From a bacterium (GTDB lineage Bacteria > Planctomycetota > UBA1135 > GCA-002686595), in the NCBI GenBank assembly GCA_030426745.1, contig JAUHYB010000002.1:1-44042 (forward strand): 44,042 bases of DNA. The letters are read 5' to 3'. Each line of letters opens with the position of its first letter. The first letter of the stretch is position 1. Of the stretch, positions 11,254 through 21,713 are shown one piece after another. The notes under the pieces were generated by a model that was given only the letters and a program-made list of their open reading frames with translations, was not told the DNA's origin and ran no database searches. A program made the translations under genes and the position numbers.

Positions 11254-11804
11254 GGGGGTCGAGGGTCTCGGTTCGGAGCCGGGGAGGCGGGGCGCGCCGC
11301 GGGACGGCGCTAGGGCGGAGAGGGCCGCCGCGCACGGGGCCGTTGTGTACTGGGCCGCTGGGAATTGGGCCGTGGGGGACCGCGCCGCTAGGAACTGCGC
11401 CGCTGGGAACTGGGCCGCTGGGAACGGGGCATGGCGCGCGGGCGACGAGTCTATTCGTCGCGGGGCGCAGGAAGGTTGGCTCTGCGGCGGGGAATCGGCG
11501 TTCGTGGGGGCGGCGTCCCCTCGGCGGCGCTCGGCGGCGTCGCGACCGCGGTCGCGGGCCCCGTGAGCGTGGGGGATGCCGGACGGTCCTTCGACCCCCG
11601 GACTGCCGCGAGTCGCCCGGGGGCGGCGCTCCACGAGCGCCGCCCCGCGCCTCGCGCGCCGGCCCCACCGCGCCGGGCGCCGCGTCCCGGGACGGAACGG
11701 TCGCTCCGAACGGGGCTCACGGAACGTTGCGGCTTCCTATCGGGACCCGGCGGTCCGCTCTACGGTCGAGTCCATCCAGACCACGTCCCACCGGGAGGGG
11801 CACC
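11254..11804. other. Divergent intergenic region with tandem repeat
   Basis: 550 bases between the leftward metallopeptidase and the rightward propeller protein. It holds a 15-bp tandem repeat (11349-11423) and, near the right end, TACGGT at 11761-11766, a weak -10 candidate 38 bases before the ATG at 11805. No gene is convincing: the open frames have compositions dominated by Arg, Pro, Gly and Ala and no recognisable domain. Confidence 0.6.
11349..11423. repeat. 15-bp tandem repeat, five copies
   Basis: Consensus ACTGGGCCGCTGGGA. Copies start at 11349, 11364, 11379, 11394 and 11409; the first and fifth are identical and the others differ by one to several bases. A multiple of three preserves any frame, but flanking sequence does not look coding. 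It is likely a slippage-generated minisatellite in the divergent promoter region. Confidence 0.85.
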
Positions 11805-14690
11805 ATGATCCGCACCACGAGGGCGCTCGCACCGTCGAGCGCCGCGACCCTCGGCGCCGCCTGCGCCGTGTTCCTGTCCACCACCTCCCTCGCGCGCGCG
11901 CAGACCCCGCCGGTCGCCGTCGACGACGTCTACTCCGTCGCGACCGGCGGCGAGCTGGTCGCCGTCGCGCCGCCGGCCGCCGCCGTGATCGAGGAGTTGA
12001 TCGACGCGACCGGCGACGGCGTGCACGCGTTGACCGGCGTCGAGGGGATCGCCGTCGACGTCGCGGGCAACGTCTTCGTCGCGGGACTGAACACCGACAA
12101 CGTGTTCCGCGTGACGCCGGGCGGCGTGGTGACGCAGGTGCTCGACGCGACGGGCGACGGCGTGGCCGGCTTCGCCGCGCCCTTCGGCGTCGCGACGGAC
12201 GCCGCGGGCAACCTGTTCGCCGCGGGCAGCGGCACGGACAACGTCTTCCGCGTCGAGCCCGGCGGGACGATCACGCAGGTCATCGACGCGACCGGCGACG
12301 GCGCCGTCCCGCTGCTGTCGCCCTTCGGCGTCGCGACGGACTCCGCCGGCAACCTGTACGTCTCGGGCAAGGACAGCTGGAACGTCTTCCGCGTCACGCC
12401 CGGCGGCGTGATCACCGAGATCATCGACTTCACCGGCGACGGCGTCAGCCCGCTGCAGGAACCCTTCGGCGTCGCGGTGGACGCGGCGGACAACGTCTAC
12501 GTCGCGGGCCGCAAGTCCGACAACGTGTTCAAGATCACGCCGGGCGGCACGATCACCGAGATCCTGGACGCCGCGGGCGACGGGCTGGGCAACACGCTGG
12601 ACTGCGGCAACTTCGTGCACTGCGGCATCACCGCGGCCGCGGACGGCACGGTGTACGTGACGGGCGGTCAGTCCGACAACGTCTTCCGCGTCGACTCGGG
12701 CGGCGCGGTCACCGAGATCCTGGACGCCGCCGGCGGTGGAGCGGGGTCCCTCGACCTGCCGCAGGGCGTCGCGTTCGACGACGGCAGCGGCACGCTGTTC
12801 GTCGCGGGCACGCTGTCGTCGAACGTGTTCGCGGTGACCGCGGCGCTCGACGTGTCGATCGTGCTGGATTCCTCCGGCGACGGGATGGGGAATCCGTACG
12901 ACACGCCGGACGCGTTCAACCTGGCCGTGGACGCGGCGGGCAACCTGTACGCGAGCGCGTTCACCAGCGCGAACGCGTTCAAGGTGCCGCCCGGCGGGCC
13001 GCCGCCGACCGCCGGGATCACGCAGCTGATCGACGGTTCCGGCGACGGCGTCAGCGCGCTGGTGAACCCCGACGGCATCGACGTCGACGAGGCGGGCAAC
13101 CTCTACGTCGGCGGCTGCGGCAACTCGCCGGCGAACTCCAGCGTGTTCCGCATCGACGCGGGCGGCGCGATCACCGAGGTGCTGGACGGCACCGGCGACG
13201 GCGTGCACGCGTTCAACTGCCCGGTCGGCACCGAGCTCGACTGCAAGGGCAACCTGTGGGTCGCCGGGCACCGCAGCGACAACGTCTTCCGCGTCGCGCC
13301 CGACGGCGTCGTGACGATGATGGCGGACGCGGCGGACGGCCTGCTCGCGCCCTTCGACGTCGCGATCGACGGGCGCGACAACGTGTACGTCACCGGCTTC
13401 GACTCCGACAACGTCGTGCGCATCGCGCCGGACGGCACGGTGACGGAGGTCATGGACGCGACGGGCGACGGGCTGGGTCAGACCCTGGACGCGCCCTTCG
13501 GCGTCGACGTCGACGCGGACGGGAACGTCTACGTCGCGGGCAACGACGGCGACAACGCGTTCCGCGTGGCGCCGGGCGGCGCGGTCACCGCGATCATCAC
13601 GGCGGCCGGCGACGGCGTGAACGCGTTCGCGAAGTGCGCGGACGTCGCGGTGGCGCGCTCGGGCAACGTCTACGTGACCGGCAACGGCAGCGACAACGTC
13701 TTCCGCGTGGCGCCGGGCGGCGCGATCACGATGATCGCGAGCGCGGCCGACGGCCTGGACAACCCGACGGGGATCGAGGTCGACGCGGCGGAGAACGTCT
13801 ACGTCTGCTGCTTCGAGAGCGACAACGTGTTCTGCATCCGGCCGGACGGCGCGATCGTCGAGGTCCTGACGGGCGCGGGCGACGGCGCCCACGGGTTCGA
13901 AGGGCCCGCCGACGACTGCATCGCTCTGGCGGGCGACGGCACGGTCTACGTGACCGGCACGCTCGCGTTCCACAACGTGTTCCGCGTCGAACTCGACCGG
14001 CCAGGCGTGCTGGACAACGACGCGGACGTCGACGGCGACCCGCTGACGGCGGCGCTCGTCTCGCCGCCCACGGCCGGCGCGCTGACGCTGGACCCGGACG
14101 GCTCGTTCACCTACCAGCACGACGGCGGCAGCGCGCTCGTCGACAGCTTCACGTACCGCGCGAACGACGGCGGCTTCGACTCGAACACGGCCACCGTCAC
14201 GATCGCGATCGAGCCCGCGTGCCCGCCGAGCTTCGACGACCTGGGCTGGTCGATGTGCTTCGGCGACGGATCGGCCGCCGCCTGTCCCTGCGGCAACGAG
14301 TCCGGCGTCGCACAGTCCGGCTGCGAGCACTCCGGCGGCGAAGGGGCGCGCATCCGCGCGCACGGCTCGGACCAGGTGGTGGTCGACGACGCCGTCTTCT
14401 CCCTGTGCCGCGCGGTCCCGAACCAGACGGCCGTGCTGGTCCAGGGCGCCGCCGCGATCGCGCTGCCGTTCAAGGACGGCGTGCTGTGCATGGGCTCGTG
14501 GACCCGGCGGATCGAGTTCGTGGCGGTCGGCCCCGACGGCGGCGCGACGACGACCGCCTCGCTGGCGACGCGCGGCAACCTGTTCCCCGGGCAGACGCGC
14601 TACTACCAGTGGTGGTTCCGCGACCCCGGCGCGTCGCCGTGCGGGTCGGGCTCGAACTTCTCGAGCGGGCTGTCCGTCGACTGGATGTGA
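11805..14690 (+). CDS. Secreted NHL/SMP-30-like repeat protein inserted in a split Ig/cadherin-like domain
   Basis: 961 residues with a signal peptide (to about residue 32, LARAQ). Residues 36-56 (PVAVDDVYSVATGGELVAVAP) are the first strands of a bacterial cadherin-like/tandem-95 Ig domain. Fourteen repeats of ~43-53 residues follow (about 65-730), each like DATGDGV..P.GVAVDAAGNVYVAG..SDNVFRV.PGG.ITEVL, the NHL/SMP-30 propeller pattern. The Ig domain then resumes at PGVLDNDADVDGDPLTAAL and runs through GSFTYQHDGG and DSFTYRANDG to ~803. The last ~155 residues form a Cys-rich planctomycete domain (MCFGDGSAAACPCGNESG; later RYYQWWFRD and FSSGLSVDWM), probably a sorting or surface module. The start has GGGAGGGG four bases before the ATG. 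The N-terminus and propeller are certain; binding partners are unknown. Confidence 0.85.
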   Translation: MIRTTRALAPSSAATLGAACAVFLSTTSLARAQTPPVAVDDVYSVATGGELVAVAPPAAAVIEELIDATGDGVHALTGVEGIAVDVAGNVFVAGLNTDNVFRVTPGGVVTQVLDATGDGVAGFAAPFGVATDAAGNLFAAGSGTDNVFRVEPGGTITQVIDATGDGAVPLLSPFGVATDSAGNLYVSGKDSWNVFRVTPGGVITEIIDFTGDGVSPLQEPFGVAVDAADNVYVAGRKSDNVFKITPGGTITEILDAAGDGLGNTLDCGNFVHCGITAAADGTVYVTGGQSDNVFRVDSGGAVTEILDAAGGGAGSLDLPQGVAFDDGSGTLFVAGTLSSNVFAVTAALDVSIVLDSSGDGMGNPYDTPDAFNLAVDAAGNLYASAFTSANAFKVPPGGPPPTAGITQLIDGSGDGVSALVNPDGIDVDEAGNLYVGGCGNSPANSSVFRIDAGGAITEVLDGTGDGVHAFNCPVGTELDCKGNLWVAGHRSDNVFRVAPDGVVTMMADAADGLLAPFDVAIDGRDNVYVTGFDSDNVVRIAPDGTVTEVMDATGDGLGQTLDAPFGVDVDADGNVYVAGNDGDNAFRVAPGGAVTAIITAAGDGVNAFAKCADVAVARSGNVYVTGNGSDNVFRVAPGGAITMIASAADGLDNPTGIEVDAAENVYVCCFESDNVFCIRPDGAIVEVLTGAGDGAHGFEGPADDCIALAGDGTVYVTGTLAFHNVFRVELDRPGVLDNDADVDGDPLTAALVSPPTAGALTLDPDGSFTYQHDGGSALVDSFTYRANDGGFDSNTATVTIAIEPACPPSFDDLGWSMCFGDGSAAACPCGNESGVAQSGCEHSGGEGARIRAHGSDQVVVDDAVFSLCRAVPNQTAVLVQGAAAIALPFKDGVLCMGSWTRRIEFVAVGPDGGATTTASLATRGNLFPGQTRYYQWWFRDPGASPCGSGSNFSSGLSVDWM

Positions 14691-15522: not shown

Positions 15523-16013
15523 GCGCGCGCCCGCAACCCGACGAGCTGGAGACGATCGGCTGGCGCGAGTGGGTCGCGCTGCCGTCCTTCGGCATCCAGT
15601 CGATCAAGTGCAAGGTCGACACCGGCGCGCGGACCTCCAGCCTGCACGCCTACGACGTGGAGGAGTTCCGCCGGGGGGGGCGCGACATGGTGCGCTTCGT
15701 GGTACACCCCGAACAGCGGTCGACGAAGGAGACGATCCACTGCGAGGCGCGTCTCGTCGACCGCCGCAAGGTCAAGCCGTCCAGCGGCCACGCCGAGCTC
15801 CGGCCGGTCATCCTGACCGAGCTCGAGCTGATGGGGCAGCGCTGGACGGTCGAGTTGACGCTCACGCGTCGCGACGCGATGGGCTTCCGCATGCTGCTCG
15901 GCAGGCAGGCGACGCGCGGCCGGTTCGTGGTCGACCCGGGGCGGTCCTACCGCAACGGCAAGCGGATCAAAGGCAAGAAGCGGCTCTCGGGGCCGAAGGG
16001 AACGAAACGGTGA
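15519..16013 (+). CDS. RimB-like retropepsin-fold protease (ATP-dependent zinc protease family)
   Basis: 164 residues of the family annotated as putative ATP-dependent zinc protease. The core is [17 protein letters not shown] followed by [14 protein letters not shown], with Asp34-Thr-Gly as in retropepsin-like aspartic proteases, then [11 protein letters not shown] and [18 protein letters not shown]. In Pseudomonas the homologous RimB trims or regulates poly-glutamate added by RimK. The GTG start at 15519 overlaps the previous TGA (GTGA), and the end overlaps rimK in the same way, so the two partners are made together. The basic C-terminal tail (KRIKGKKR) is a family feature. Function on S6 or another target is inference. 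Confidence 0.85.
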
Positions 16014-18780: not shown

Positions 18781-19724
18781 CGCTCGCGCTCGTCACCCCG
18801 CAGCCGGAGGTGTTCCGCGCCTACGCGATCGCCGCCGCGGGGCTGCTGGTCGCGGCCGGCCTCGCCATCGCGTGGATCGGCCGCGGCGGCCGCCGCGACG
18901 TGTCCGGCGTGCGCCGCACGTGGATCGGCTGGCTGATCATGGCGCCGCTGGCGCTGGGCGCGCTGTACCTGGGCCGCGTGCCGACGATCGTCGGCGTCGG
19001 GCTGCTGGCGCTCGGCGGCTTCCGCGAGTTCGCGCGCGCCACCGGCCTGTACCGCGACTGGACGACGACGATCGCGGTCTACCTCGGCGTCGCGGGCCTG
19101 ACGGCGGTCGCGCTGGTGGACGACCCCGAGACCGGCGCGCCGGGCTGGTACGGCCTGTACATGGCGATGCCGGTGTACGTCGTCGCGGGGCTCTTGACGG
19201 TCCCGGTGTGGCGCAACCGGGCGAAGGGACAGCTGCAACCGGTCGCGCTCGCGATCGTCGGCTTCGTCTACTTCGGGTGGATGTTCGGGCACCTCGCGTT
19301 CCTCGCGAACGCGGCGGAGGCGACCGGGTACCTCCTGTTCCTGATCTTCGCCGTCGAGCTGAACGACGTCGCCGCCTTCACCTGCGGGCGACTCTTCGGC
19401 CGCACGAAGCTGCGCAGCGAGATCAGCCCGAACAAGACGGTCGAGGGCTCGCTCGGCGCGCTGCTGTTCTCGCTGGCGCTGCCGTGGCTGCTGCGCGGAT
19501 CGTTCCCGCACTTCGACGCGGTCGACCTCGTGCTGACCGGACTGATCGTCGGCGTCGGCGGGCAGCTGGGCGACCTGTCGATCTCCTTCATCAAGCGGGA
19601 CCTCGGCATCAAGGACATGGGCGCGTTGATCCCGGGTCACGGCGGCGTGCTGGACCGGCTGGACAGCCTGATCTACGTCGCGCCGCTCTTCTTCCACCTC
19701 GTGCGCTGGCGGCACGGGATCTGA
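18777..19724 (+). CDS. cdsA: Phosphatidate cytidylyltransferase (CdsA-like)
   Basis: 315 residues, about eight TM helices. The enzyme makes CDP-diacylglycerol from phosphatidate and CTP. The C-terminal signature is complete: SFIKRDLGIKDMG then IPGHGGVLDRLDS, matching the Prosite-type pattern S-x2-K-R-x4-K-D...H-G-G-x-x-D-R-x-D. Earlier FAVELNDVAAFTCGRLFG and SPNKTVEGSLG also match. The start is a GTG overlapping the previous stop (GTGA); the stop overlaps the ATG of the acyltransferase (TGATG). The cluster order phosphatidyltransferase, CdsA, PlsC puts product and precursor steps together. This may be the specialised (YnbB-like) rather than the housekeeping copy. Confidence 0.92.
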   Translation: MTLALVTPQPEVFRAYAIAAAGLLVAAGLAIAWIGRGGRRDVSGVRRTWIGWLIMAPLALGALYLGRVPTIVGVGLLALGGFREFARATGLYRDWTTTIAVYLGVAGLTAVALVDDPETGAPGWYGLYMAMPVYVVAGLLTVPVWRNRAKGQLQPVALAIVGFVYFGWMFGHLAFLANAAEATGYLLFLIFAVELNDVAAFTCGRLFGRTKLRSEISPNKTVEGSLGALLFSLALPWLLRGSFPHFDAVDLVLTGLIVGVGGQLGDLSISFIKRDLGIKDMGALIPGHGGVLDRLDSLIYVAPLFFHLVRWRHGI

Positions 19725-20596
19725 TGCGGGACCAGGGCGAGGGCGAACCGGACGCGGGCCGGGTCGGGAGCGGTACCGGCGGGGGGAACGGGTCCGACGA
19801 CGGGAGCGGGGGCGCGCCCGATCTCGGCGGAGCGGAGCTCTGCGAGTCCGGGATCGGCGCGCCCGGGCGCGAGGGTCGCGCCGGCGCCGGCGAGTGGACG
19901 TACGCGCCGCCCGCCGACCTGGCGCAGCCGCTGGCCGAGCGCCTGAAGGGCTTCCCGCGCGAACCCGAGATGTGGATGTACGCGCTGCGGTCCGGCGCGG
20001 CCGCGGCGATCCGCGCGTGGCTCGGCGTGTACCACCGCTTCCGCATCCACGGGCGCGAGCACCTGCCGACGGCCGGTTCGTTCGTGATGGTCGGCAACCA
20101 CCAGAGCCACCTCGACGCGCCGTGCCTGCTGGCCGCGTTGCCGTGGCGCACCCTGCACCGCGCGTTCCCGGCGGCGGCGGCGGACTACTTCTTCCAGAGC
20201 CTGCCGACGGCGGCCTTCAGCTCGATCGTGATCAACGCGCTGCCGTTCGACCGCGAGGCGAAGGGGGAGGAGAGCCTGGCGGTGTGCCGCGCGCTGCTCG
20301 AGACGCCGGGCAACGTGTTGATCCTGTTCCCTGAGGGCACGCGCAGCACGACGGGCGAGCTGGGCCGCTTCCGCTCGGGCATCGGGCGGCTGGTCGAGGG
20401 CACCGACGTGCCCGTCGTCCCGTGCCGTCTGGTCGGCGCGCACCGCGCGTGGCCGAAGGGCGCCGCGATCCCGCGGCCGGCGAAGCTGGACCTCCACATC
20501 GGCGCGCCGCGCTCGTTCGGGCACCTCCCGCCCGGTCGCGAGACGGTCGGAACGATCTGTCGGGAACTGCAGGAGGCGGTCGCGGGCCTCGGCTGA
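19724..20596 (+). CDS. plsC: 1-acyl-sn-glycerol-3-phosphate acyltransferase (PlsC-like)
   Basis: 290 residues. The acyltransferase blocks are VGNHQSHLDAP (block I, His126 and Asp131), a middle INALPFDRE and ILFPEGTRSTTGELGRF (block III). The first ~60 residues are an unusual Gly/Asp-rich tail (GSGTGGGNGSDDGSGG) without family counterpart; an internal start further in is possible, but there is no in-frame ATG until the codon for Met83, so the TGATG-coupled start at 19724 is preferred. It probably supplies phosphatidate to the CdsA encoded just before. Twelve bases after its stop begins the large hairpin element. Confidence 0.88.
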   Translation: MRDQGEGEPDAGRVGSGTGGGNGSDDGSGGAPDLGGAELCESGIGAPGREGRAGAGEWTYAPPADLAQPLAERLKGFPREPEMWMYALRSGAAAAIRAWLGVYHRFRIHGREHLPTAGSFVMVGNHQSHLDAPCLLAALPWRTLHRAFPAAAADYFFQSLPTAAFSSIVINALPFDREAKGEESLAVCRALLETPGNVLILFPEGTRSTTGELGRFRSGIGRLVEGTDVPVVPCRLVGAHRAWPKGAAIPRPAKLDLHIGAPRSFGHLPPGRETVGTICRELQEAVAGLG

Positions 20597-20608
20597 CCCG
20601 CGTCCGTG

Positions 20609-20740
20609 CCTCGACAGGACTACGGTGCCAGGCACCTTCCTCCGGAATCGCGTCCCACGCGAGAGAGCCGCCGAAAGGCGGCTCTCTCGCGTGGGACGCG
20701 ATTCGGGAGGAAGGTGCCTGGCACCGTAGTCCTGTCGAGG
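20609..20740. repeat. 132-nt near-perfect inverted repeat (64-bp arms, GAAA loop)
   Basis: Left arm 20609-20672, loop GAAA 20673-20676, right arm 20677-20740. The arms match at 63 of 64 positions; the only mismatch is G20644 opposite G20705. Each arm also contains a 13-base sub-palindrome, GGTGCC-A/T-GGCACC (20624-20636 and 20713-20725), a motif I associate with REP-like elements. In RNA the GAAA would be a GNRA tetraloop. No second copy is apparent in the window. It follows plsC by 12 bases and precedes the next promoter by about 60. It may be a MITE/REP-type mobile element, a terminator, or both. Confidence 0.9.
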
Positions 20741-20798
20741 CGTGGCACCATGCCCCTGTGGACGGGCCGCGGTCGTGGAGACGGGCGCGGCCGATCGC

Positions 20799-20810
20799 TA
20801 CGCTTCCGGC
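20799..20810 (+). promoter_or_regulatory. Leaderless-type -10 box, TACGCT plus six bases to ATG
   Basis: TACGCT at 20799-20804, then TCCGGC and the ATG at 20811. The six-base gap equals that at 18076, 25787 and 26581. Confidence 0.45.
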
Positions 20811-21713
20811 ATGCAACGCACCTCGCGCTTCGCGCTCGCGGCCGTCGCCGCGCTCGGGTCCTGTGCTTCCACGTCGGCGCCGACCGCGCGGCTCTCGATC
20901 CCCGAGGTCGCGGAGCCCACCGCGCCGCGCCGCGTGTCCGCGGACGACGCCGCGACGACCGAGACCCCGTGGGAGACGTTCAGCCTCAGCGCGGGCGGCC
21001 TGCTCGTCGCGCTCGACAGCGGCGCGCGCTTCGGCCCGGCCGGCGCGGGCGTCGAGCTGAACTTCGAGGACCTGTTCGGCCTCGACACCTCGACCAGCTC
21101 GTTCCGCCTCGAGGGCACGTGGCGCTTCACCGAGAACCACCGCCACCGCGCGTCGCTCGGTTGGGTGGACCTGGGGCGCAGCGGCGAGACGACCTTGCAG
21201 AGCGACGTCACGGTCGACGACACGACCGTCCTGCCGGCGGGCACGGGCATCAAGAGCGGCTTCGGCCTGCAGCTGATCAAGGCGGACTACAGCTACTCGT
21301 TCTTCCAGGACGACCGCGCCGACCTCGCGGCGATCTTCGGCATGTACGTCGCGCCGATCGACGTGTCGCTCGAGGCCGTCGGGCTCGCGACCTACAGCGA
21401 CAACTTCGACGTCACCGCGCCGCTGCCGCTCGCCGGCCTGCGCATGGACTTCGCGCTCACGCCGGAGTGGTTCCTGCGCAGCAACCTCAGCCTCTTCTAC
21501 CTCGAGTTCGACGGCTACACCGGGTCGATGTCCGACATCACCGCGGCGGTCGAGTACCAGGCGTGGAAGCACGTGGCGATCGGCTTCGGCGTCGACTCCT
21601 TCCGCATCGGCGTCGAACACGAGGGCGACTCGAACATCCCCGGCGTCTCGAGCCGGGGCAAGATCGACATCGGGTACACGGGCGCGATGCTGTACCTGAA
21701 GGGCATCTGGTAG
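20811..21713 (+). CDS. Lipidated outer-membrane barrel-like protein
   Basis: 300 residues. The signal MQRTSRFALAAVAALGSC has a lipobox at Cys18. After a Pro/Ala linker the sequence alternates in short amphipathic strands (FSLSAGGLLVAL, SFRLEGTWRF, HRASLGWVDLG, GLQLIKADYSYSFF, AAVEYQAWKHVAIGFGVD) and ends GAMLYLKGIW with a terminal aromatic residue, as in outer-membrane barrels. It resembles OmpW/opacity-type barrels only in general. The in-frame ATG at 20742 lies at the edge of the hairpin element and adds no signal peptide, so 20811 was chosen. Confidence 0.75.
   Translation: MQRTSRFALAAVAALGSCASTSAPTARLSIPEVAEPTAPRRVSADDAATTETPWETFSLSAGGLLVALDSGARFGPAGAGVELNFEDLFGLDTSTSSFRLEGTWRFTENHRHRASLGWVDLGRSGETTLQSDVTVDDTTVLPAGTGIKSGFGLQLIKADYSYSFFQDDRADLAAIFGMYVAPIDVSLEAVGLATYSDNFDVTAPLPLAGLRMDFALTPEWFLRSNLSLFYLEFDGYTGSMSDITAAVEYQAWKHVAIGFGVDSFRIGVEHEGDSNIPGVSSRGKIDIGYTGAMLYLKGIW

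Follow-up and report, generated by a model that had tools for sequence, protein, structure and literature searches.

The window, a stretch of 44,042 nucleotides, raises the question of what kind of element forms the near-perfect palindrome that separates two of its codirectional genes, and by what means the two arms of that palindrome stay so closely matched. The first-pass annotation had described arms of 64 bp with one mismatch and a GAAA loop, a description that we confirm and extend by one further outer pair, to 65 nt. The features are as follows.

20608..20741, no strand: whole hairpin element, 134 nt, from inverted-repeat search, fold, and family alignment
20608..20672, + strand: left arm, 65 nt, with outer end and core conserved and the inner part copy-specific
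20673..20676, + strand: loop GAAA, different in other copies
20677..20741, - strand: right arm, the inverse of the left arm except for the mismatch G20644/G20705
20620..20636, + strand: REP-like unit of the left arm, CTAC (ATAC in most copies) followed by GGTGCCAGGCACC
20713..20729, - strand: REP-like unit of the right arm, in inverse orientation
19724..20596, + strand: upstream neighbour, gene for a PlsC-type acyltransferase (context, outside the element)
20811..21713, + strand: downstream neighbour, gene for a secreted protein with no Pfam match (context, outside the element)

The arms pair at 64 of 65 positions (98% complementary) around a 4-nt spacer, and each contains a GGTGCC-N-GGCACC palindrome (20624-20636 and 20713-20725). 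No other close inverted repeat of the window comes near to it. Its fold energy is -160.5 kcal/mol against a mean of -64.5 for shuffled sequences (z = -22.6; 0/200), and when sequence of a relative with 71% G+C was shuffled, 400 kb of it yielded no hairpin with a score of at least 19. The stop codon of the PlsC-type gene, which is the last of a gene run with matches to CDP-OH_P_transf, CTP_transf_1, and Acyltransferase, lies 11 nt 5' of the hairpin, and 69 nt separate the other end of the hairpin from the next ATG on the same strand.

The window's own genome (G000) is a draft of 4.23 Mb in 704 contigs, 81% complete, and a search of it with the element returned 80 rows at about 40 places at E <= 1e-8. 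Exact GGTGCCNGGCACC sites number 51, against 0 for the reversed pattern. Thirteen copies are complete, each with GGTGCCNGGCACC in both arms in inverted orientation, and about 26 further half copies end inside the hairpin at a contig end; many elements of this genome break contigs at the hairpin tip. Since several halves share an inner arm (by-eye reading; e.g., C400/C431, C224/C556, and C260/C139), they seem to be opposite sides of a single element, and the complete copies together with the paired halves thus give a total of about 30 to 40 elements. Each arm runs from the consensus GCCTCGACAGGAATACGGTGCCAGGCACCTTCCTCCGGAATAGCG through a copy-specific inner arm to a loop of a few bases, and the tetranucleotide before the palindrome is ATAC or CTAC in these copies and RTAC in relatives. 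A functional part for the GNRA loop is rejected, because the other copies carry other loops. Nothing relevant to GGTGCCTGGCACC turned up in the literature searched, and among 84,980 named genomes GGTGCCNGGCACYTTCCTCC had only 10 matches, single and scattered.

It had been considered at the outset that the hairpin might be a single conserved copy, a regulatory RNA and not a mobile element. A conserved regulatory RNA confined to this locus, with the phospholipid operon on one side and the next gene on the other, would account for the strong structure and the co-variation only, and it is refuted by the copy number, about 30 to 40 at unrelated loci; the window also has no Rfam match at the gathering threshold, and we give this reading practically no chance. 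False inverted duplication during assembly, the other alternative raised at the outset, draws some support from the 704-contig draft, in which many contigs end in the middle of a hairpin. It is nevertheless very improbable, because the unique flanks differ on the two sides of each complete copy and a near-complete relative from the same family (G016; 6.9 Mb, 2 contigs) holds its own versions of this class, in which the sequence changes from copy to copy.

The hairpins of this near-complete relative share the architecture of those in the draft genome. Sixteen of them, measured in 800 kb, have arms mostly of 37 to 83 bp, mostly free of mismatches, and loops mostly of 3 nt, and only 4 of 1052 pairs are not Watson-Crick. 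They fall into two families, A (TAGGCGTTCGTACGGTGCCAGGCAC...) and B (GGGCGTACGGTGGCGGGACCATTT...). There are also short forms (L111 and L113), in which two outer arms are joined at a single GGTGCCNGGCACC and the inner part was probably lost through the palindrome. With a covariance model built from the draft-genome copies, similar hairpins were found in 20 of 81 family genomes. Their sequence differs from genus to genus (e.g., GGAATACGGTGCCAGAGCAATTTTTC in G062 and G025), and between genomes the 13-nt palindrome co-varies only moderately (18 cells with double changes versus 11.8 in shuffles; 2/500). Three hairpins clustered near a contig end in G004 (C62:119300-121138; L264) have 5 to 7 mismatches each and are therefore less homogenised than those in other genomes.

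A link to REP-associated transposases had been suspected from the sequence of the arms. It is borne out in six relatives, whose arms match the ends of RAYT-like genes, and stops short in the window's own genome, where the RAYT ends (C253:7006-8016) share only the start motif with the hairpin. In G016, the sole Y1 transposase gene found (339 aa) has family B hairpins on both flanks. Its homologues occur in 37 of the 81 family genomes and have NCBIfam REP_Tyr_transpos as their best match, below cut-off; the homologue in G000 matches Pfam Y1_Tnp over cut-off. An HxH motif (H60 and H62) and two tyrosines (Y112 and Y119) are conserved, and no sequence in the PDB matched the RAYT. Terminal inverted repeats flank most of the 30 transposase genes examined, and these repeats start with RTAC[ACG]G[AT]G[CTG]C in 21 of 30 flanks upstream and 18 of 30 downstream, the expectation being 0.0047 per 180 nt. 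Hairpin arm and transposase end have nearly the same sequence in G027 (42/44), G084, G083, G026, and G085, and this transposase is present in 16 of 20 hairpin-positive genomes versus 21 of 61 others (Fisher p = 0.0006; as the compared sequences are related, this and the other p-values are indicative). No RAYT of this group was detected in the hairpin-bearing genomes G062 and G025. GTGCCNGGCAC was not found in the flanks of the three Y1 genes of G000, nor was a cognate transposase for the window hairpin found in this 81%-complete genome; the cognate enzyme may have been lost, may be encoded on a contig that the assembly lacks, or may come from an unrecognised gene.

Two further observations concern Y1 genes. 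G000 has a second kind of Y1 transposase gene (L122; C501:5500-10500) beside a different repeat that translates repeatedly as ...RAERSPAELERSAAAP..., and G037, from another family of the same order, has 62 Y1_Tnp matches and far more GGTGCCNGGCAC-like sites than the control (353 versus 79), with single AAAGGTGCCAGGCACCTTT palindromes adjoining the gene at one locus.

Sites without the element were found in congeners at two occupied sites, which hold related elements and not the window copy. At the first, the hairpin site of G085 aligns without a break to G019 (897 versus 900 bases, 78%), which lacks the 128-bp hairpin. At the second, a hairpin of G062 between convergent genes, one of them lpdA-like by sequence reading, is absent in six congeners, and in G025 and others the same junction carries a short hairpin that resembles a terminator. 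A same-site comparison anchored on the PlsC-type gene gave no match of the window site, the best homologues in relatives being about 40% identical or less. The elements are thus dispersed, multi-copy, and mostly intergenic, congeners have empty sites for related elements, and in several relatives the arms are the ends of transposase genes. Because of the copy number, the RAYT-like ends, and the empty sites, we assign the hairpin to the non-autonomous elements of REPIN/TIR-dimer type: it is probably, judging from sequence comparison, a REPIN-like mobile repeat composed of two inverted ends of a Y1 (HUH) RAYT/TIRYT transposon, with the transposase gene replaced by a short loop. Each end would consist of the RTAC-like tetranucleotide, a short GGTGC-CAG-GCACC palindrome, and about 45 further bases. 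Of the origins first considered, both a mobile element of REP or MITE type and a pair of element ends are consistent with these results. Spread would occur in trans, by the action of a Y1 transposase on single-stranded hairpin DNA, as proposed for REPs.

Like REPINs (Bertels and Rainey 2011, PMC3116915), these elements have a pair of inverted REP-like units around a variable middle and fold into one long hairpin, and they are dispersed, extragenic, subject to compensatory stem changes, and, in six relatives, tied to RAYT transposases. They differ in having no GTAG/GTRG tag outside the palindrome, in their arms of 37 to 87 bp with 0 to 2 mismatches and usually 3-nt loops, in the pairing of copy-specific outer bases, and in their position mostly at gene 3' ends. 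Because RTAC or CTAC holds the place of GTAG, we do not file them as GTAG REPs. In TnpA-REP, the tetranucleotide guides where cleavage occurs, and a GTAC variant shifts that site (PMC8266576); by analogy, RTAC may be such a guide here, which we offer as a lead only. The TIRtrons and TIR dimers (Di Nocera and others 2013, PMC3733652) likewise have a RAYT-like (TIRYT) gene between inverted repeats without GTAG, and their repeats also occur as dimers elsewhere in the genome, as is seen here in G027, G084, G083, G026, and G085 but not in G000 with the RAYT found there. In contrast to those, the end motif of RTAC and palindrome is common to many genera of the family here, and the dimers form long hairpins that are almost perfect. 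Nematomorph mitochondrial genes (PMC6649704) also contain many perfect inverted repeats of great length within a single small genome, although those are coding and mitochondrial and have no tie to a transposon end family.

The arms of the 13 complete copies in G000 co-vary, in agreement with the active maintenance proposed earlier: both-sided changes at 35 of 65 pairs amount to 91 cells versus 25 in shuffles (0/500), whereas the per-pair table has 8 cells with one-sided changes of G.U type. Compared in ungapped register, the inner arms of one copy share 88% identity, against 60% for inner arms of different copies. Ends of this kind that have the transposase gene between them, at a distance of 1 kb, agree at only 80% over 26 nt, against 96% for the hairpin arms of G000 and 99% for those of relatives (Mann-Whitney p = 5e-8); 35 nt were compared, and the functional ends may be shorter. 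That arms stay matched in diverged copies suggests that one arm has repeatedly been copied onto the other. Template switching is a general mechanism that predicts such matching of adjacent arms (PMC8794818), and we infer that the arms template each other in this manner within the hairpin, by quasipalindrome correction, so that their identity would be kept at the DNA level. The documented cases are alike in their multi-base compensatory changes without G.U intermediates and in copying into the flank; they concern the stems of RNA genes, whereas here the process is proposed for dozens of mobile hairpins of 60 to 80 bp per genome. The two states of the ends, adjacent in the hairpin or 1 kb apart around a transposase gene, constitute a natural experiment on the homogenisation of inverted repeats.

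Pairing could instead be kept by compensatory selection on RNA, with the hairpin as a 3'-UTR structure (a bidirectional terminator or RNase barrier) whatever the origin of the element. The arm co-variation would follow from this, and so would the placement of the copies beside stop codons and often between convergent genes. By eye, a stop codon is no more than about 25 nt away from 13 of 18 hairpins in G016, and 7 of the 18 lie between convergent genes against a background of 86/459 (p = 0.04); the same holds for about 7 of the 13 complete copies in G000 (p = 0.005), all gene positions being those of a crude gene caller. The G062 copy even stands where congeners have a terminator-like hairpin. 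The window copy has a less usual setting, behind a stop codon between codirectional genes. Against selection on RNA, G.U-type intermediates are almost lacking next to the double changes, A.C (11) outnumbers G.T (4) among the few mismatches of the G000 copies, and mismatch-free stems of 65 to 83 bp far exceed the need of a terminator. Moreover, no U tract or terminator-like site was found in 20400-21000, and copy-specific outer bases are paired too. The pattern of the arms fits the template-switch prediction and is hard to obtain from RNA selection alone, which we consider improbable as the explanation of the matching. A role of the mobile hairpin as a terminator or 3' mRNA protector is still plausible: once transcribed at a gene 3' end, it may replace the terminator or shield the end of the mRNA.

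The outer bases bear on how the elements insert. Up to 18 nt beyond the palindrome, they agree more within than between copies, and further out the agreement is that of the background. Outside the family A ends in G016, the paired copy-specific extension averages about 6 bp (hand count) versus 0.4 expected. The G062 element has GAGAACG at its left border, and at its right border CGTTCTC, the inverse of that sequence. In G025, whose flanks are 94% identical to those of G062, GAGAACG precedes the terminator-like hairpin and CGTTCTC is missing, and the outer paired bases therefore look like copied flank; at this one site, one flank has apparently been copied to the other side. Template switching could thus also lengthen a hairpin by a few bases.

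A pair of ends might otherwise insert into the stem or tip of a pre-existing terminator, whose remains would form the outer copy-specific arms. The sites are indeed gene 3' ends, where terminators sit, and the congeners of G062 have a terminator-like hairpin at the site. In one composite hairpin of G016 (C1:6128623-6128767), the outer bases belong to family A (TTAGGCGTTCGTAC) and the core to family B, which looks like the entry of one element into another. However, only ACGG of the outer arm of G062 lies within the G025 palindrome, GAGA being outside it and yet paired in G062, and most other convergent junctions in G016 have no hairpins or short ones, so that we consider insertion into terminators rather unlikely. 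It is possible, as a tentative suggestion, that insertion moves half an element, one end with part of the inner stem, whose 3' end folds back and self-primes a few bases into the target flank. If so, each copy would be born a perfect hairpin with copy-specific outer bases, a palindrome-manufacturing mode of transposition. With the empty sites, the insertion mechanism of RAYT-mobilised repeats becomes open to direct test.

Long palindromes are fragile in model bacteria, and dozens of near-perfect palindromes of about 110 to 180 bp per bacterial genome are therefore unexpected. SbcD over the cut-off was not found in G000, G016, and G029 (three of four genomes), where the only SbcD matches, below the cut-off, come from a diverged Mre11/SbcD-like metallophosphoesterase of about 450 to 470 aa. 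Absence of the palindrome nuclease SbcCD is thus possible on sequence grounds and, if true, could help explain the tolerance of long palindromes. The hairpins also explain many contig breaks in drafts of this lineage.

Elsewhere in the window, a 15-nt G+C-rich unit (GGCCGCTGGGAACTG-like) is repeated in tandem in at least 6 copies at 11299-11430, and an ARAGORN tRNA-Arg at 15716-15798 on the - strand, within a long opposite-strand coding frame and without Rfam support, is likely a false call. At least 8 tandem copies of a coding repeat of about 141 nt (DNVFRVxPGG...-like units) at 11908-13904 probably belong to a secreted protein of beta-propeller type.
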